NCBI GenBank assembly: GCA_024280855.1
Contig: JAJRPG010000100.1
Coordinates: forward strand, 1 to 35,725
Direction: 5' to 3'
DNA: 35,725 bases
Origin: Planctomycetota bacterium
GTDB taxonomy: Bacteria; Planctomycetota; Phycisphaerae; UBA1845
Positions 804 through 12,424 of this stretch are shown here, in pieces. The first letter of the stretch is position 1; the number at the start of each line of letters is the position of its first letter. A model generated the notes under the pieces. It made no database searches. It was not told where the DNA came from and saw only the letters and a list, made by a program, of their open reading frames with translations. The position numbers and the translations under genes were made by a program.

Positions 804-3167
804 ATGACAAGGTCCATGCATTCGCAGAAAAGAACAACACCAAGTCAGTGGGGTAGCAGGCGCATCCTCGCCACGATTCTAACTATCATTTTCGTGACCG
901 AGACGTGCGCGATGTTTCTCCTACCATTGATATTACCACCCGACATCCACCCATGGATCGAGGCGTTCTCCGATGCCACCCTGTTGAGTCTTGGTAGCCT
1001 ACCACTCCTCTGGATTCTGCTTATCCGCCCCATGCGTATCGACTTTCAAAGATCGCTTAATCATTCTCAGCGGATGATAACCGCATTGGACGAAAACTCG
1101 ATTGTAGCCAGCACTGATCCATCGGGTACGATCACCTATGTCAATGACAAGTTCTGTCAGATTAGCCAGTATTCACGGGAAGAATTAATCGGGCAGAATC
1201 ATCGAATCGTCAATTCAGGACATCACCCCCGCGCATTCTGGGTAGAAGCATGGAAGACAATCGCAGCAGGGAAAACCTGGCACCGCGAAGTATGCAACAA
1301 AGCTAAGGATGGTTCGTTGTATTGGGTTGACACAACCATCGTCCCGTTCAAGAACAAGACTGGAATAATTACACAGCATGTAGCCATTCGATCTGACATC
1401 ACCCAACGAAAGGCAGCAGAAAAACAGTTACTGCAAGAAGCTCAAACAAAGGCAACCTTAAACGACCTGTTAGCACTCTCTGTACAAGCTACGTCCAAGG
1501 ATGTATTGGTCAATGAATCATTGGACATCCTGCTTGCGGTGGATTTCATGACTGTCAAAAGAGAAGGTGCGATTTTCCTGGTTGGAGAACAATCCGAAGA
1601 GCTGGTTCTGACAACCTATCGAAATCTCTCTCCACCACTTTTGGCCCAATGTGCCAAGGTACCGTTCGGACATTGTCTGTGTGGACAGGCTGCTCAAACG
1701 GGAGAAGTACAATTCGCTTCCTGCGTAGATACAAGACACAAAATTCAATTCGAGACCATGAAGCCACACGGACACTATAACGTCCCAATTCGGAGAAATG
1801 GCAATACACTCGGTGTTATAGCTATCTATTTACCTGAAGGCGCGCAGCGTAGTGAGTTTGAAATCAAATTTCTTGAAACAGCCGCAGACATCTTAGCCGG
1901 TGCGATTCTTCGCATCGATGCGGAGCAGGAACTTCAGTCCAATAATATATTGCTGTCACGAGCCATGTATCAAGCAGATTCAGCCAACAAGGCGAAAAGT
2001 GAATTCCTCGCCAACATGTCGCACGAGATTCGCACACCCATGACAGCTATCTTAGGGTTCGCCGAGAATATGCTCGACACCGATCTGCCTGTTTCGGAAA
2101 GGATGAATTGCATCCACACCATTCGCCGCAATGGTGAATACCTGATCGGCCTCATTAACGACATTCTCGATCTTTCCAAGGTTGAATCGGGAAAAATGGA
2201 TATTGAGCATAAAGATTGTCACCCGTGCCAGATCATCGCAGATGTAGCCGCACTCATGCGCGTGCGGGCCGATGCCAAGAATCTACCGTTCAACATCGAA
2301 TATGTGGGAACCATTCCGGAAATTATCCAAAGCGACACCACGCGCATACGACAAATTCTCATCAATCTAGTCGGTAACGCAATCAAATTCACCGAGTCCG
2401 GAGCGGTAAGACTTGTTACCCGCTATGTCGAATGTAATGATGTACCTTGCCTACAGTTCGACGTGATGGATTCGGGGCGGGGTATGACACAAGAGCAAGT
2501 GGCCAAGCTATTCCAGCCATTCGTCCAAGCTGACAGTTCAACGACGAGAGTCTTCGGCGGTACGGGCCTTGGTTTGACGATTAGCAAACGATTCGCTGAA
2601 CTACTTGGCGGAGACATTACCATACCAGAAACTGAATTACACCGAGGTACAACCTTCCGCGCAACAATCACTACCGGACCTCTCGACGGTGTGATAATGC
2701 TCGAGAATCCTCTATCGGCCACGATGGTAACTGAATCTATCACTACCATCGCGCCGGGGAAGACGTCCGACCTTCAAGGCCTGCGCATCCTTCTTGCGGA
2801 GGATGGTCCTGACAACCAGCGCCTCATTTCATTCGTATTAAAGAAGGCTGGGGCTGAGGTAGTTGTGGAAGAAAATGGTAAACTCGCGTTGGATGCCGCG
2901 CTCAAGGCACACGAAGAGCGGATACCATTTGATTGTATCCTAATGGATATGCAGATGCCCGTGATGGATGGCTACGAAGCCACCGGACAACTACGTCAGC
3001 AAGGATACACCGGGGCCATCATCGCACTCACCGCCCACGCCATGGAAGGCGACCGCGATAAGTGTATTAAATCCGGGTGCAACGATTACGCAACAAAGCC
3101 CATCAATCGGCAGAAGCTAATAGAGACAATCCATAACAATTTGGCGATAGTCGAGGCTGCTACATAA
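804..3167 (+). CDS. Hybrid sensor histidine kinase (2 TM, PAS, GAF, HisKA, HATPase, REC)
   Basis: A 787-residue membrane-bound hybrid two-component kinase. Two hydrophobic helices lie at about residues 22-46 and 55-76. A PAS domain follows (about 103-200, with the [16 protein letters not shown] segment), then a GAF-like domain (about 215-375). The HisKA segment [19 protein letters not shown] carries the phospho-accepting His407. The ATPase domain shows [10 protein letters not shown] (N box), DSGRGM (G1) and GGTGLGLTI (G2). A C-terminal receiver domain starts near residue 660, with phospho-acceptor Asp715 in [15 protein letters not shown]. There is no HPt domain, so phosphotransfer must continue to a partner elsewhere. 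AGAGGA lies directly against the first ATG; ATG 816 is a possible alternative start. No response regulator or output gene lies next to it, and the signal sensed is unknown. It converges on top6A. Confidence 0.9.
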
Positions 3168-3201
3168 ATATCGCTTGCGGAAAGCGGTAAGAAGTAGCCC
3201 A

Positions 3202-4356
3202 TCAATCCAGCCACTGCTTCTTATCTTTAAGCTTCATAGGCACATATTCTTCAGTTAGATAAGACAAGTTTTTAGAGATCATAGCCTCGACTTCCATCTT
3301 AAAGCCGTTGGTTAGCATCTTCTTGATTTCTTTTTGCCACGGCTTTTTCTTGGCGAACCAGGTGTAGTTAGCTATTTGTTTCGCACGCTTCACGTCGTTG
3401 GCGTCAAGTTCGATCTTCACGTCGTCACTCATACCGCAGCGATCGTAATCAAAACTGGACACCCCAATATACTTTGCATCGGGGATAGCCATCCGCCTTG
3501 ATTCGTAGGCTAAATTGATTGAGCCATGCTTAATCACCGAGTAAATATAATACCCCCACGGATCATTATCGAGCAGCACATAAACCGGCAGCTTCAACTC
3601 CTCGTGCATGCGCCGCAACAACCTTCGCATCCCACGCGCAGGCTGACCGCCGCCGTGCGAGAGAATGCAGTCGTGCGTTTGCCAAAAACGATCTTCGTGA
3701 AACCTTCGCCAGATGGTGTCTTTTTCAACGTGCAAAATAAACTTAGCTTTACACTTCTTGAACTGGATCATGTCCGGCTCACAAATACTCGGCACCGCAT
3801 AGCCAGCGCTACCCATCGCGGAGCAGTCCAACGTGTTGCCATCATCCACCAGCGTAATAGGCCCAACCAAATTGCCTCGGTTGCTCGCAAAAACGTGTAG
3901 CTCTTCGCGCAGCGTATCGATCGCCACTTCGAGGTCTTCGATAATCGGATCGGACTCAGCCTGATCGTCAAAGGTTTTTTCTTTCGTACCTTTGATGGTG
4001 TGCTTACTCATGTAATAAATCTGACGAATGCTAGCCGTCTTGCCCATGTCGATCAGGTCTTTGCACTTCGAGCCAACGAGCATGGTCTGCATAAACCGCT
4101 TAGCTTGGCCATAGTTAAAAAAGTTTCGCGACTGTTTATTGCTACCCATCTCAACGTGGCGGGTTTTTTCGTTATAAGAAACATTACTTAACGAGCGCGT
4201 AGGAATAGCGATAGCCGGGTCTTGCGCCCGCTCAGCCATCTTAACAATACTCAGCGCAAGATTCTCAAGCTGCTTCTTCGTCTGCTCACTATTTCGCTTG
4301 ACCACACGCTTAGGGCCGCTTGATGTTTTGGTAGTTTTAATTGTCTTCTTAGCCAT
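3202..4356 (-). CDS. top6A: DNA topoisomerase VI subunit A
   Basis: This 384-residue protein is the cleaving subunit of a type IIB topoisomerase (Spo11/Top6A family). It makes the transient double-strand break through a tyrosine while subunit B binds ATP. The winged-helix segment SIRQIYYMSKHT holds the tyrosine pair Y114/Y115, and by family alignment Y115 is the likely nucleophile. The Toprim metal site is visible as Glu211 in FILHVEKDT and Asp263/Asp265 in VLLDNDPWGYY. Length matches the archaeal subunit. The N-terminus carries about 30 extra residues rich in Lys, Thr and Ser. It lies 66 bases downstream of top6B on the same strand, so the two are probably one transcript. The family is typical of archaea and plants and patchy in bacteria. 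Confidence 0.93.
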   Translation of the reverse strand: MAKKTIKTTKTSSGPKRVVKRNSEQTKKQLENLALSIVKMAERAQDPAIAIPTRSLSNVSYNEKTRHVEMGSNKQSRNFFNYGQAKRFMQTMLVGSKCKDLIDMGKTASIRQIYYMSKHTIKGTKEKTFDDQAESDPIIEDLEVAIDTLREELHVFASNRGNLVGPITLVDDGNTLDCSAMGSAGYAVPSICEPDMIQFKKCKAKFILHVEKDTIWRRFHEDRFWQTHDCILSHGGGQPARGMRRLLRRMHEELKLPVYVLLDNDPWGYYIYSVIKHGSINLAYESRRMAIPDAKYIGVSSFDYDRCGMSDDVKIELDANDVKRAKQIANYTWFAKKKPWQKEIKKMLTNGFKMEVEAMISKNLSYLTEEYVPMKLKDKKQWLD

Positions 4357-4422
4357 GCTAGGTTCTCATCTATTTGTTCGCACTGAAAATAGTCCAGCGA
4401 TAATTTTGAAACAAGACGCGAT

Positions 4423-6372
4423 CTACTTTCTACGTTTCTTCTTTTTCTTACTCTGCTTCAAGCTAACATTCGCCACCTTCTTGGGCGCATCATCTTCAAA
4501 CAGCGCCTCAGGCCCATCGGTTTCTTCATCACGGTTCACCACAACTGTGTTAGCTAAGCCAAGGTCATTACCGGGCTTAGCCTTTTTTATCACCTTGCCA
4601 TGATCGTCGAATTCCATGTCCGCCGCAGCTGTGTAGTTTTGCGAAAGTGCGATGAGTGATTGCCTAAAATCCTCTTTATTAAAAGTCGTAATAGATCGCG
4701 TAGCCTCTACGACCTCATCAATATACCTTGTGAACACATCGCGGCGTTTGGCAAAATCTGATTTCTTTTTCTTACGCTTCAACAACGTACCGAGTCGTCG
4801 CGCACACTCCGAGATGCCAAGCTTTACTTCTTTACGAATCTCGTCGTAGTCCGCAATCGCTTCCTTACCCTCAGATATAAACGGAACCCACACACTAGCC
4901 ATGTGTACTAAAATCACCAAAGGCCCGCGAGGCATGGCACCAGACGATTGCGAAAGGGTGTAATTATTCCACTTTGTTTCCAGCACGCTCTTAAACGTAC
5001 AACACGAACTCTGCTGATAAAGAAGCGGCACACGATTTGCAAAACGTATCACGCGCGCCTGAGCCGGTTCTCGTTTACCCTTCTCTTCATCAGGATTCTC
5101 GTCGTGCCTATCGCGCCCCAATTCGCCGCCATAGGCTAAGCCCACTTCGATTTGAAACGGATTACCCCGATACACGCTCGGCGGCCTGGTGCTCGCAGTA
5201 TAAAACTCTGCTTTGATTCCCTTTAACAAACCAGCTAGGATCGCTTCAACACCGATCGGCGCCAAGCAATTCGTCGATGGCGCTTTGAGCTTGGTATCTT
5301 GCAGAACGCGATAAAGCTTTTCGATGACAGGCGTTTCCATACCGCTGACCCATGTCGCGGTGGTGACACCAGCTTTGGCGCAAACGCTTTTCGCCACAGC
5401 TGGGCTTACCCGGGAAAACTCGCCGGTTAAAAACGCGCCCAGCTTTTGGTGCTCGGTATCCTTAGCCATCTTGATCATCGTGCCCAGCTCAATCCCATAA
5501 GGGTGAGGCTTGATCTCTTTGGTCTCGTCGGGAAGCTCGTCGGTACCACGTTGTAAATCAAGCGTCGCCCCAACAGGCGGATGAAGAATGAGCGTCGCAT
5601 GAGGATTAGCTATCGCTGTCAGCTCAATATATTCTTCAACGCTCTGCCGACCTTTGTTATAACTAGCGACGAGTTCGATCGTGACTTCCGTACCGTGTGG
5701 AAAATCAACTTCGATCGCTTCATCTTTGATAATGTCCGGGCGATTTTTCTTCGTATCGATCGCAAGCTTGTATAAATGAGCCACCGCTCGACTGGACGTG
5801 CGCGAAATAATTTGAATCGGCTTACCCGTCGTAATCAGCCCGTACATCCCAGCGGCACTGATACCAATACCCTGCTGGCCGCGCGACATCTTCAGCCGAT
5901 GAAACTTGGACCCGTACAACAACTTGCCGAACACATTAGGTATCTGATTTTTTACAATGCCCGGACCGTTGTCCCGAATCCGAACAGAAAAGCGGTCGGT
6001 GTCCGTCTGCTTCACCCAGATTTCGACCTCCGGCAGAATGCCTGCTTCTTCGCAGGCGTCCAGACTATTATCCACCGCTTCCTTTACTGTGGTCAGTAGC
6101 GCTTTACGTTTATTATCAAAACCGAGCAGATGGCTATTTTTGGCGAAAAATTCCGAGACGGAGATTTCCCGCTGCTGCTTAGCCATCGACTCCGCCGTCG
6201 CACGGGTACGAGGCGCTTTGCCAGAGCCTGGCTTTGAATTACTCTTGGTTGCTGCTTTCTTTTTACCCACGGATTCACTGCTCCCAGCCAACGGTTCAGT
6301 CTGCCCCAGGCCAAAGCCTAATGTCAATTGCGAGGCCTTGTCCGATTTTTCGACGAGCTTTTGATCGGCCAT
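4423..6372 (-). CDS. top6B: DNA topoisomerase VI subunit B
   Basis: This 649-residue protein is the ATP-binding clamp subunit of topoisomerase VI, which relaxes or decatenates duplex DNA together with Top6A. The GHKL ATPase fold is clear: Glu98 and Asn102 in KEAVDNSLDACEE, DNGPGI at 134-139, and the lid RGQQGIGISAAGMYG from 164. An H2TH-like middle and a transducer domain follow; the PFISEGKEAI segment contains the likely switch lysine. The first 65 residues are low-complexity (Lys/Ser/Ala-rich), and the protein ends in SKKKKKRRK. Both are additions to the usual core and probably contact DNA. GGGGGAG lies about 8 bases before the ATG at 6372. The gene diverges from dnaA, with 317 bases between them. 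Confidence 0.93.
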   Translation of the reverse strand: MADQKLVEKSDKASQLTLGFGLGQTEPLAGSSESVGKKKAATKSNSKPGSGKAPRTRATAESMAKQQREISVSEFFAKNSHLLGFDNKRKALLTTVKEAVDNSLDACEEAGILPEVEIWVKQTDTDRFSVRIRDNGPGIVKNQIPNVFGKLLYGSKFHRLKMSRGQQGIGISAAGMYGLITTGKPIQIISRTSSRAVAHLYKLAIDTKKNRPDIIKDEAIEVDFPHGTEVTIELVASYNKGRQSVEEYIELTAIANPHATLILHPPVGATLDLQRGTDELPDETKEIKPHPYGIELGTMIKMAKDTEHQKLGAFLTGEFSRVSPAVAKSVCAKAGVTTATWVSGMETPVIEKLYRVLQDTKLKAPSTNCLAPIGVEAILAGLLKGIKAEFYTASTRPPSVYRGNPFQIEVGLAYGGELGRDRHDENPDEEKGKREPAQARVIRFANRVPLLYQQSSCCTFKSVLETKWNNYTLSQSSGAMPRGPLVILVHMASVWVPFISEGKEAIADYDEIRKEVKLGISECARRLGTLLKRKKKKSDFAKRRDVFTRYIDEVVEATRSITTFNKEDFRQSLIALSQNYTAAADMEFDDHGKVIKKAKPGNDLGLANTVVVNRDEETDGPEALFEDDAPKKVANVSLKQSKKKKKRRK

Positions 6373-6689
6373 CCTTGACGCTCCCCCCTATTGTTTCCAG
6401 TTCTCCCAGTCGCCGGGATGATAGCCCACCATCCCGCCATCGCAACTGTTGATGCCATCGAACCGATCATCGGCCCTTTCCCCACCCAGACGCCAATCAG
6501 CCCCTGCAAGGCACAATCCGGGCTGTGAATTTATGCTATCAATCTGTTCTTGGCTCTGTCGCAATGCCCACGAATTTGGTAGGATGCGGTTGCTTCGTCA
6601 GACGATGTCCACGAGGCGAATTATTGTGTGGTGTAACCATCACAGCTACAGCGCAAATGTCTCTGACGGACGACTGCTAAAGATCACTC
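6373..6689. other. Divergent intergenic region between top6B and dnaA
   Basis: These 317 bases must hold the promoters for both the leftward top6BA operon and rightward dnaA. I looked for consensus DnaA boxes (TTATNCACA on either strand) and found none. I found no -35/-10 pair that stands out. Open frames across it have no plausible protein pattern. Confidence 0.5.
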
Positions 6690-8009
6690 ATGGCTAATTG
6701 CTCGCCTTCTTTTCGTGATGATGTCTTCGGACACATAGGCCTAAACCACCCAGACCTGGTCCGGGCGTGGTTCAACGACCTTCAACTCATCGATTTGAGC
6801 GCAGGCGTACTTTCCGTCCAGGCGAATAATGGCGCGCAGCTAAAATATCTTCTTGAACATTGCCAGCCCGCTTTTGCCGAAGCTGCCCAAGCTGCCACCG
6901 GCAGACTCGTATCCGTAGCCTTTGACGCAATAGAAAACCCGAACGACCCCTACCTCGCCGGCCAATCTGGCACAGGCTCTACTTCCGACGAATTACAACT
7001 TCGCCCCGAAAACACCTTCGAACACTTCGTCACCGGACCTTGTAACCGCCTCGCCCACGCCGCAGCCACAGCCGTCGCAACCGCTCCAGGCGAAACGTAT
7101 AACCCCTTCTTCATTCACGGTGGCGTAGGCCTGGGCAAGTCGCACCTGTTACAAGCCATTTGCCACAAGATTCGCAGCGAGAATAAACAGGCTAAAATCC
7201 TCTATATTTCCTGCGAAACATTCATCAATCACTTTATCGAATCCGTGGAACGCGGAGCGATTCACCAATTTCGCTATCGCTACCGCCATGTCGATGGCCT
7301 GGTGATTGACGACGTCCAATTTCTAGCTGAACGTGAACGTAGTCAGGAAGAGTTTTTCCACACGTTCAACGCCCTACATCAGTCGCAGCGGCAGATTATC
7401 CTCACGGCTGATTGCTCACCAAGCGAAATTCCCAGCTTAGAGGAAAGGCTGGTAAGTCGATTCAACTCCGGTCTCGTCGCGTTGGTCGAAAGACCATGCC
7501 TCGAAACGCGCATGGCTATCCTTCGTAAAAAGGCCAAGCTCCGCTGCGTTGAAGTTCCCGAAGATGTCATTCGTTTAATCGCAGGCCGACTCGACACCAA
7601 CATCCGTGACCTGGAAGGCGCTTTGCTAAAACTAGACGCCCTCAGTCACGCCCAGGGAAGTCCCGTTACTATTGAGTTAGCCCGGTCTTCGCTAGGCCCG
7701 CTCCCAGGCCGGTCGGTCTCCATTCCCATCATTCTCGACATCGTAGCTAAGCGGTTCAACGTCAAGGTGACTGAGCTTCGGGGCAAAAAACGGTTCAAAG
7801 CGGTCACTTATCCGCGACACATATGTATGTACCTAGCCAGGCAACTGACCGACCAAAGCTTAGAGCAAATTGGCGGGTACTTCGGTGGACGCGACCATAC
7901 CACCGTACTCCATGGCAGCCGCACCATTGCGAAACAGGCAAAGGCTGACCCGGACATGCAGCGGGTGCTCGACCAGCTTCACACGGAGGTCCAACATGCC
8001 GCTTACTAA
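6690..8009 (+). CDS. dnaA: Chromosomal replication initiator protein DnaA
   Basis: A 439-residue replication initiator: an AAA+ ATPase that binds DnaA boxes and opens the origin. Residues 1-80 form a poorly conserved domain I, and the linker that follows is short. The AAA+ core has Walker A GGVGLGKS at 144-151 and Walker B LVIDDVQFL with Asp207/Asp208. Domain IV carries the DNA-binding signature GGRDHTTVLHG with Asp402/His403. The length is typical. The Shine-Dalgarno sequence before ATG 6690 is weak, so the exact start is less certain than the gene. It is followed by dnaN, a DciA-like gene and gyrB in the same direction, the classic origin-proximal order except that recF is absent. Confidence 0.96.
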   Translation: MANCSPSFRDDVFGHIGLNHPDLVRAWFNDLQLIDLSAGVLSVQANNGAQLKYLLEHCQPAFAEAAQAATGRLVSVAFDAIENPNDPYLAGQSGTGSTSDELQLRPENTFEHFVTGPCNRLAHAAATAVATAPGETYNPFFIHGGVGLGKSHLLQAICHKIRSENKQAKILYISCETFINHFIESVERGAIHQFRYRYRHVDGLVIDDVQFLAERERSQEEFFHTFNALHQSQRQIILTADCSPSEIPSLEERLVSRFNSGLVALVERPCLETRMAILRKKAKLRCVEVPEDVIRLIAGRLDTNIRDLEGALLKLDALSHAQGSPVTIELARSSLGPLPGRSVSIPIILDIVAKRFNVKVTELRGKKRFKAVTYPRHICMYLARQLTDQSLEQIGGYFGGRDHTTVLHGSRTIAKQAKADPDMQRVLDQLHTEVQHAAY

Positions 8010-8119
8010 CACTGATATCAGCTGTCGGTTGCCTGTTAACTACCTGTCATTTTCCCGACGAGAAAAGGAAGTGCCTGGGAGCCTGTTAATAGACCGCCCG
8101 AATCGCACAGCTTTACTCA

Positions 8120-8128
8120 CAGTTATTG
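8120..8128 (+). promoter_or_regulatory. Near-consensus DnaA box candidate
   Basis: In the dnaA-dnaN gap the stretch TTTACTCACAGTTATTGACA contains TTACTCACA, one mismatch from TTATNCACA. It is a single degenerate site, so this is weak evidence on its own. It is listed because of its position between dnaA and dnaN. Confidence 0.25.
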
Positions 8129-8230
8129 ACATGTGCTTTAAGGTGACAATCTTTCGTTATAACCTTAAACTACGGAACTTACGCGAAGGCGGGCTGGGAT
8201 AACGATGGATTGTATCAGACATACTAAGAC

Positions 8231-8263
8231 TACTACATATATATTATATAAGAGTATAATAGG
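8231..8263. promoter_or_regulatory. Very AT-rich tract upstream of dnaN: candidate unwinding element and/or -10 region
   Basis: The tract is almost pure A and T (TACATATATATTATATAAG) and then contains a perfect TATAAT at 8255-8260, 43 bases before the dnaN start. No good -35 hexamer is found at 16-18 bases spacing. Position between dnaA and dnaN and the low melting stability fit a DNA unwinding element, and the TATAAT could serve the dnaN promoter. Both readings are inference. Confidence 0.4.
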
Positions 8264-8302
8264 ACACCAGATAAGTTACTTACGAAAAGGGGAGCAGAAC
8301 AG

Positions 8303-9409
8303 ATGAAGCTGCGATTCAACCGAGAAGAGATGGCTGATGCACTACGCTCGATTTGCGCCGTAGCCGCTGCCCGTACCCCCAAGCCAATACTGCGATGCGT
8401 ACACCTCGAAGCTAAGAGCGATGTGTTGTTACTCTCCGCGACTGATTTAGAAGTTTCAGTTCGCTGCGCCGTAACACAAATCGAAGTGGACCAACCTGGC
8501 GAGACAGTTGTCGTCGCAGACACGCTCTCGCGTATCGTGAGCGAGTGTAACGATGAGCTTCTTAGTTTAGAGATAGCGGATAGTCAGCTTCACCTTCGCG
8601 GTGAGGGTAGCCATTTTCAAGTCGTCACGATGGACGCCAAGGAATTCCCGGCTGTGCCTTCGATGGTCGATACGCCAGACATTGCTATCCCCGGCAAAAT
8701 TCTAAAACGTATGATCGAGTGGACCCTTTTCGCCGCTGCGAAGGAAAGCACCAGGTATGCCATCAACGGCGTGCTATGGGAGCTTAACGGCAAGGAACTC
8801 ATCCTGGCAGCCACAGATGGTCGGCGTCTTTCTTTGTCGCGTGGTGAGCTTGAGACGAACGGCAACGATACGTCCTTCAAAATTATTGTACCCAGCAAAG
8901 CTATGAACTTGCTCGCCCGCTTACCGGGTGATGGCGACCAACCTATCGGCGCAAAAATGTCCGGTAGTCAGTTGCTGCTAAGTGTAGGGTCAGCCACGAT
9001 TGGCACAGCCCTGGTCGAAGGCAACTTCCCCAAGTACGAAGATGTGATTCCCAAAGACTGCGACAAAACGATGGAGATGAATACCGACGATTTTCTCGGC
9101 GCTTTGCGACGGGCAGCTTTGCTGACCAACGAAGAGTCTAAAGGTGTGAAGCTGTCTTTGTCCGACGGTAATCTCACCCTATCAAGCCGAGCGCCCGAGC
9201 AAGGCGAAGCGACGGTCTCCATCTCCGTGAAATACAAAGGTGAATCTTTGGAAATCGGGTTCAACCCCGTATTCCTGACAGACGTATTGCGCGTGTCGGA
9301 TGCTGATAGCTTGACCATGAGCTTCAAAGACTCGAATCGGCCAGGACTCATCAAGCAGGGCGATGCGTTCACTTATGTCGTCATGCCGGTGAACTTGGCT
9401 TCGGCGTAA
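8303..9409 (+). CDS. dnaN: DNA polymerase III beta subunit (sliding clamp)
   Basis: A 368-residue beta clamp, the ring that tethers the replicative polymerase to DNA. The start MKLRFNREEMADALRSICAV and the repeated clamp folds match the family, including LEVSVRC, INGVLWEL, ATDGRRLSLS and the C-terminal ending DAFTYVVMPVNLA. Length agrees with the usual 365-380. A clear Shine-Dalgarno AGGGGAG lies about 9 bases before the ATG. The upstream gap of 293 bases contains the AT-rich tract and a near-consensus DnaA box, and a perfect DnaA box follows directly after the stop codon. Confidence 0.96.
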   Translation: MKLRFNREEMADALRSICAVAAARTPKPILRCVHLEAKSDVLLLSATDLEVSVRCAVTQIEVDQPGETVVVADTLSRIVSECNDELLSLEIADSQLHLRGEGSHFQVVTMDAKEFPAVPSMVDTPDIAIPGKILKRMIEWTLFAAAKESTRYAINGVLWELNGKELILAATDGRRLSLSRGELETNGNDTSFKIIVPSKAMNLLARLPGDGDQPIGAKMSGSQLLLSVGSATIGTALVEGNFPKYEDVIPKDCDKTMEMNTDDFLGALRRAALLTNEESKGVKLSLSDGNLTLSSRAPEQGEATVSISVKYKGESLEIGFNPVFLTDVLRVSDADSLTMSFKDSNRPGLIKQGDAFTYVVMPVNLASA

Positions 9410-9414
9410 CGTAT

Positions 9415-9423
9415 TGTGGATAA
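9415..9423 (-). promoter_or_regulatory. Perfect consensus DnaA box
   Basis: The plus strand reads TGTGGATAA, the exact complement of the consensus DnaA box TTATCCACA. It lies 6 bases after the dnaN stop and just upstream of, or overlapping, the start of the DciA-like gene. It is the only perfect match I noticed in the replication block, so it may autoregulate the operon or belong to an origin rather than be a full origin by itself. Confidence 0.55.
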
Positions 9424-9430
9424 TGGGCTT

Positions 9431-9793
9431 ATGGATAGCAGGCAGCTACAATGGGTCAACCGGAACAGGTCGCGTGGCTCGCGGACCCAAGGGGTAGGCG
9501 ACATCGTTGGCCAGTTGGTCTCGAAGTTAGAGGACAGTTGGCACGGAGACCGAGACGCACTGCGAGAAGCTGTGTCGTCCATTACGGATGAGAATTTTGC
9601 CAGGCATTGCAAGCTTGGATGGATAGACCAGCGTGTCGTCACGATTTTAGTGGATGAGCCTACGTTGGTTTTTGAGATGCAGCGAAAATGGCAACAGCCA
9701 TTGGAAAAGAAATTGAAACTCGCGCTAAAAAGAGGGCGCAACTATCGTATCAGGTTTGATTTCGATAGTCATGATTTACAAAAACGGGGATAA
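9431..9793 (+). CDS. DUF721 / DciA-like replicative helicase-loading factor
   Basis: A small protein of 120 residues matching the DUF721 (DciA) pattern: VGDIVGQLVSKLEDSW, then GWIDQRVVTILVDEPTLVFE, then MQRKWQQPLEKKLKLAL. This corresponds to the family's beta strand with a conserved Trp and the following amphipathic helix. DciA proteins help load the DnaB helicase in bacteria that lack DnaC or DnaI. It sits between dnaN and gyrB, where many genomes carry recF and a DUF721 gene. The start is uncertain: ATG 9431 is chosen, while GTG 9416 adds five residues but lies inside the DnaA box. Neither has a strong ribosome binding site. Confidence 0.75.
   Translation: MDSRQLQWVNRNRSRGSRTQGVGDIVGQLVSKLEDSWHGDRDALREAVSSITDENFARHCKLGWIDQRVVTILVDEPTLVFEMQRKWQQPLEKKLKLALKRGRNYRIRFDFDSHDLQKRG

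Positions 9794-12424
<2,631 letters not shown>

Follow-up and report, generated by a model that had tools for sequence, protein, structure and literature searches.

The window, i.e., the whole stretch of 35,725 nucleotides analyzed here, comes from a planctomycete genome and carries the genes for both subunits of a topoisomerase VI (topo VI) next to a block of replication genes. The features of this locus are as follows:

3202..4356, minus strand: top6A, topo VI subunit A (384 aa), identified from its open frame and from Pfam/NCBIfam profiles
4423..6372, minus strand: top6B, topo VI subunit B (649 aa), identified from its open frame and from Pfam/NCBIfam profiles, with GHKL ATPase and transducer intact
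6373..6689, no strand: divergent intergenic region of 317 bp between the start codons of top6B and dnaA
6690..8009, plus strand: dnaA (439 aa; Pfam/NCBIfam); the genome has a second DnaA gene
8303..9409, plus strand: dnaN, sliding clamp (368 aa; Pfam/NCBIfam)
9416..9793, plus strand: ORF of 125 aa, without Pfam or NCBIfam match
9851..12424, plus strand: gyrB (857 aa), the sole GyrB/ParE gene found in the genome (Pfam/NCBIfam)

The gene order is therefore top6A and top6B on the minus strand, separated by 66 bp, then the divergently oriented dnaA, dnaN, 125-aa ORF and gyrB on the plus strand. Several relatives have an ORF resembling the 125-aa one at the same place, between dnaN and gyrB. Open frames and profiles confirm the claim of an earlier note on this DNA that top6A and top6B are complete, share their upstream region with dnaA and lie near dnaN and gyrB. 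Top6A matches the Pfam Toprim profile (E 2.5e-58) and NF003333/PRK04342.1-2 (539.8 bits, cut-off 465), which is a Top6A-family model despite its description as "DNA topoisomerase IV subunit A." Top6B matches the transducer profile (E 5.7e-53), PRK04184 (648.1 bits, cut-off 274) and TIGR01052 (499.8 bits, cut-off 380.7), and DnaA matches TIGR00362 (449.2 bits, cut-off 343.9). The second DnaA gene of the source genome is located outside the window (contig C102, 33644-34933); at least two Bac_DnaA_C matches are found in 141 of the 150 genomes sampled in the class.

Topo VI passes one DNA duplex through a double-strand break made by Top6A, under the ATP-dependent control of Top6B. The residues that we take to be catalytic align with those of the solved subunits 2ZBK, 1D3Y, and 2Q2E. 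In Top6A, Y115 (within RQIYY), E211 (within VEKDT), and D263 and D265 (within LLDNDP) occupy the positions previously claimed for them, and the GHKL site of Top6B is intact, as had also been proposed. Moreover, E98, N102, D134, G136, G138, the GQQGIG loop (165-170) and K503 of Top6B are invariant across 20 aligned rows. Both sides of a type IIB topo VI are present: a Top6A with a winged-helix catalytic tyrosine and the Toprim E/DxD acids, and a separate Top6B with GHKL ATPase and transducer, scoring above the curated cut-offs. The likeness to the archaeal enzymes from Methanosarcina mazei (2Q2E) and Saccharolobus shibatae (2ZBK) spans most of both subunits, and the catalytic tyrosine, the Toprim acids, the GHKL site and the transducer lysine are all in register. 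However, unlike the solved archaeal chains, Top6B of the window reaches 649 aa and has unmatched N- and C-terminal stretches. Another difference from archaeal topo VI is that the genes adjoin dnaA, in a bacterium that also has gyrase.

Profile searches of the source genome (96% complete) gave one PF00521 (GyrA/ParC) match, on contig C42, and one PF00204 (GyrB/ParE) match, which is the gyrB gene of the window. As each gene is single, it can be concluded that gyrase is present and that topo IV is missing from the assembly. Thus, gyrase does accompany topo VI, as had been stated, and the suggested search for parC and parE elsewhere in the genome found neither gene in this assembly. Topo IV is a type IIA enzyme whose architecture differs from that of topo VI. 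Its cellular job, the unlinking of sister chromosomes, is the one proposed below for topo VI.

Within the sample of its class (taken to be Phycisphaerae), Top6A exceeds the family cut-off in 92/150 genomes and Top6B is present in 92/150; 91 genomes have both subunits and 93 have at least one. In the family of the source organism (f1), Top6A is found in 44/51 genomes and Top6B in 47/51. At the scale of the phylum, in a sample limited to genomes with a completeness of at least 90%, Top6B is present in 110/195. The description of topo VI as patchy in bacteria is therefore not apt for this class. A tree of Top6B was calculated from 96 rows, corresponding to 84 genomes of the class (window included) and 12 named rows, none of them archaeal; rows shorter than 500 aa were dropped and SH-aLRT was the only support measure. 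The tree groups by family, with 20 label changes vs. 50.4 in shuffles. Families f5, f14, f16, and f17 form one group each, f7, f10, f18, and f21 are broken up, one f4 row is nested inside f1, and f2 is unresolved from one f3 row. In view of these broken-up families and nested rows, inheritance would be mostly, perhaps not wholly, vertical. An archaeal origin of bacterial topo VI, as put forward by Allen and Maxwell (2024; PMC11302465), could lend some credit to the hypothesis that the genes were acquired recently, from an archaeon or from some other bacterium, with no relation to core replication. However, the class- and phylum-wide distribution and the clustering of Top6B by family, in a tree whose reach does not extend to a deep donor, contradict a recent date. 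This hypothesis was rejected as highly improbable, in agreement with the earlier view that topo VI is no stray gene here.

Topo VI is incomplete or absent in two genomes whose congeners have it. G005 has a short Top6A remnant with an in-frame stop (C35:156272-156367) and no Top6B, so that topo VI is apparently in decay; its congener G015 has both genes. G046 possesses neither Top6 gene; its congeners G003, G013, and G032 have them.

The relationship between topo VI and topo IV was examined in the same samples. In the class, a second GyrA/ParC gene together with a second GyrB/ParE gene is found in 14/150 genomes, none of which has topo VI. In other words, both topo IV genes occur in 0/93 genomes with topo VI vs. 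14/57 without (Fisher p 4e-7, a value uncorrected for kinship), which is consistent with topo VI replacing topo IV as a decatenase. If a duplicate of just one of the two genes is enough to be counted, the figures become 3/93 (G019, G099, and G141) vs. 19/57; second copies in these three genomes and in others may be split or extra gene pieces. Second B subunits of G048, G053, G072, G078, G080, and G149 have open frames of 642-659 aa, presumably the size of ParE, and in G053 and G072 the second B gene adjoins the second A gene. A GyrB tree was computed for 60 genomes, comprising the 14 with topo IV, 30 of the 93 with topo VI and 16 of the 43 with neither; nine independent pairs in it differ in topo VI on supported branches. 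Topo IV differs in the opposite direction in three or four of these pairs and in the same direction in none, the remaining pairs being alike in this respect (p 0.125-0.25); this tree-controlled test is not significant. It should also be noted that 43/150 genomes of the class lack topo VI as well as the full pair of topo IV genes. Therefore, gyrase alone seems to be enough in these organisms and topo VI is not obligatory.

In the phylum sample overall, 11 of the 110 topo VI genomes have a second GyrA/ParC gene. Outside the class, at least two PF00521 genes are found in 11/86 genomes with topo VI vs. 48/80 without. Ten of these 11 genomes (G206, G210, G228, G261, G271, G279, G283, G291, G295, and G340) also have at least two PF00204 matches, some of them fragmentary or weak, and are possible examples of planctomycetes with three type II topoisomerases. 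Mutual exclusion thus has no exception in the class sample but is a strong tendency in that of the phylum, where a strict rule had to be abandoned. We take the genera Anaerohalosphaera and Sedimentisphaera to belong to the class of the window. With Pirellula, Lacipirellula, and Thermogutta, they are listed among the Planctomycetota by Allen and Maxwell (2024; PMC11302465); these members of the same phylum resemble the source organism in that they combine topo VI with gyrase and lack topo IV. According to the same study, topo VI bacteria outside Pseudomonadota and Terrabacteria are devoid of topo IV (PMC11302465). Our phylum sample suggests exceptions to this pattern among Planctomycetota, the extra type IIA genes being only putative ParC/ParE. 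Each family was represented by a single species in that study, whose main text contains neither "operon" nor "dnaA" (PMC11302465). Relative to it, the sampling of a whole class and phylum, the link to dnaA, and the occurrence of topo VI together with extra type IIA genes outside the class are additions of the present analysis.

Because gyrase is present and topo IV absent, decatenation appears as the most economical role for topo VI. Gyrase would supply negative supercoiling. Topo VI would most likely ensure the ATP-driven unlinking of precatenanes and of replicated sister chromosomes, as topo IV does elsewhere. Upon ATP binding, Top6B would dimerize and capture one duplex, and Top6A would cut the other one by means of Y115 and its Toprim metal site. 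In a study of the M. mazei enzyme, topo VI is described as slow in relaxation and as acting preferentially in decatenation; the removal of precatenanes was proposed there as what may be its main role in vivo (PMC8837201). Moreover, Allen and Maxwell suggest that topo VI stands in for topo IV and mention, as unpublished data, that M. mazei topo VI complements an Escherichia coli parE mutant (PMC11302465). Thus, little is new about the enzyme or the role proposed for it, and the idea of a replacement decatenase is already in print (PMC11302465).

The position of the genes beside dnaA was then compared among relatives, the linkage states being assigned by hand from profile match tables, contig extents and locus maps. 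Of the 47 f1 genomes with Top6B, 41 are decidable, a contig end intervening in G153, G163, G164, G178, G181, and G183. In 32/41, top6B is divergent from dnaA. At most 506 bp lie between the start codons, as placed, in 28 of these genomes, including the window, and 1.9-3.8 kb lie between the two genes in G071, G176, G182, and G186. In the nine others (G045, G083, G152, G158, G159, G161, G162, G184, and G189), top6B is not adjacent to dnaA. For G162 and G189, where the near dnaA was not found in the assembly, this state means that no dnaA lies within 4.7 and 7.7 kb upstream of top6B, respectively; for G152, it means that top6B and dnaA sit on separate contigs, whose visible upstream parts measure 1.1 kb for top6B and about 5 kb for dnaA. 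Retention of the neighboring genes was counted in the 31 linked loci besides the window, each locus being used only when there was room to see the gene. In these loci, dnaN is in place in 29/29 cases and gyrB in 24/24. top6A is found within 3 kb of top6B in 13/19 cases. In the other six, top6A is on another contig (G065, G142, G169, and G182) or about 20 kb away (G160), and no Top6A was found in G151, whose assembly is 71% complete. As for the outer neighbors in the window, the histidine kinase is retained in 1/13 loci (38% identical) and the spermidine-synthase-like gene in 0/17; the congener G171, which keeps the latter gene (80% identical), has less than 2 kb of room and therefore stands outside this count. 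Since top6A is sometimes elsewhere and the outer neighbors are mostly not kept, it appears that top6B, and not the whole operon, is tied to dnaA.

The 41 f1 rows of the Top6B tree whose state could be decided require at least six gains or losses of the link, most simply losses with topo VI retained. Linked genomes are found on both sides of the deepest f1 fork; the link is thus probably ancestral to the family and was lost several times. By contrast, a divergent top6B-dnaA pair was found in none of the 40 Top6B loci of the class that were mapped outside f1 (they stem from 40 of the 84 genomes with Top6B beyond f1, and at least 2.1 kb is visible upstream of top6B in each). In 25 of these 40 loci, top6A is absent from the stretch fetched around top6B. 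Accordingly, a placement of top6 next to dnaA in relatives, suggested for checking, stands for most of f1 and falls in the loci mapped outside it, where the genes lie at the unrelated loci that the earlier note had named as the outcome speaking against it. Two non-f1 arrangements may be mentioned. In G106, top6A and top6B are found beyond the far side of gyrB, and in G125 (L200), top6B, top6A, and gyrB are in tandem, forming another replication-gene neighborhood. In the literature on topo VI, covered with most subscription papers outside its scope, no title or opening of an abstract pointed to a top6B-dnaA pair. As far as this search reached, the family-level pairing looks new to print.

How can this arrangement be explained? 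It can be imagined that a single event in the f1 ancestor placed top6B beside dnaA, and that the gene was kept there by inertia, without regulatory or functional meaning. The restriction of the link to one family among the mapped loci, its several changes while topo VI was kept, and the frequent separation of the A and B subunits elsewhere are consistent with this possibility. However, the outer neighbors of the window are mostly lost, which makes simple regional inertia weak on its own, and we consider this explanation possible but clearly not the leading one. In our opinion, the window probably encodes a functional A2B2 topo VI, largely vertically inherited in the class and acting as a topo IV-like decatenase, and its position next to dnaA reflects an ancestral arrangement of the family. 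top6B would probably be kept at dnaA by the shared divergent regulatory region and by the conserved dnaA-dnaN-gyrB block; an action at the origin is a less probable reason.

An origin-coupled topo VI, located beside dnaA because it acts at initiation or is timed with it, for instance through control by DnaA or through the gene dosage of an origin-proximal position, was also considered. The conservation of the divergent pair in most decidable f1 genomes while the outer neighbors change would fit such a coupling, and so would the location, across dnaA from top6B, of gyrB, which encodes the ATPase subunit of the second type II topoisomerase. The near-DnaA-boxes would fit it too: in 28 intergenic regions of 30-1200 bp (one from the window, 27 from relatives), 17 were counted vs. 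5.0 expected from single-base shuffles, and exact boxes occur in G022 and G190. Ten of the 17 belong to genus g2, where they may hint at DnaA autoregulation. However, the number of near-boxes per region never exceeds three, unlike in an oriC cluster, and region 6373..6689 of the window contains no DnaA box within one mismatch, as is also the case for its two congeners. Moreover, the pair is missing from all mapped loci outside the family and is unstable within it. The GC skew of G151, a single scaffold, varies from -0.089 to +0.035 over 20 stretches of 20 kb with no clear switch, and gives no usable origin signal; this scaffold is 71% complete and contains runs of N, which renders the test uninformative. 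Origin coupling is therefore judged unlikely. The role at the origin that the position had been taken to suggest is not supported, the link being limited to one family and mainly to top6B, with no DnaA box in the shared region of the window. What is supported is the class-wide, non-stray presence of topo VI, the absence of topo IV genes from the assembly and the conserved dnaA neighborhood in the family.

A search for a DnaA-box cluster in the shared top6B/dnaA region found none, and the only exact TTATCCACA box of the window is at 9415-9423, just past the dnaN stop. A weak sigma-70-like match is present in the intergenic region (minus strand, 6445-6418) and is, alone, no evidence of a promoter. 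Promoter and terminator scans of 3100-8400 gave seven and five sites, vs. 4.5 and 5.1 in shuffles, and nothing usable.

A further, rather improbable, idea is that Top6B is co-regulated with DnaA, the dnaA gene of f1 having on either side a gene for the ATPase subunit (Top6B or GyrB) of one of the two type II topoisomerases of the cell, and that the supply of Top6B sets the decatenation capacity. This would explain why top6B stays while top6A wanders. If true, the supply of Top6B, and not that of Top6A, would pace decatenation with the initiation of replication. The top6B-dnaA pair thus offers a concrete regulatory hypothesis. More generally, the class lends itself to a natural comparison, as its families may have topo VI, topo IV or apparently only gyrase, and it also includes close relatives in which topo VI seems to have been lost.

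Finally, additional ORFs are found inside some of the f1 loci. In G170, from the same genus as the source organism, a three-ORF insert (L122:7340-9296) parts top6B from top6A. An ORF resembling one of this insert lies between top6B and top6A in L131 and L135 (G174 and G180); it looks like a secreted glycosidase, an impression gained from the sequence alone. In a subclade of f1 (L124, L132, L137, and L206), at least two ORFs with C-terminal sorting signals, which we take to be of the PEP-CTERM type, are located between top6B and dnaA.
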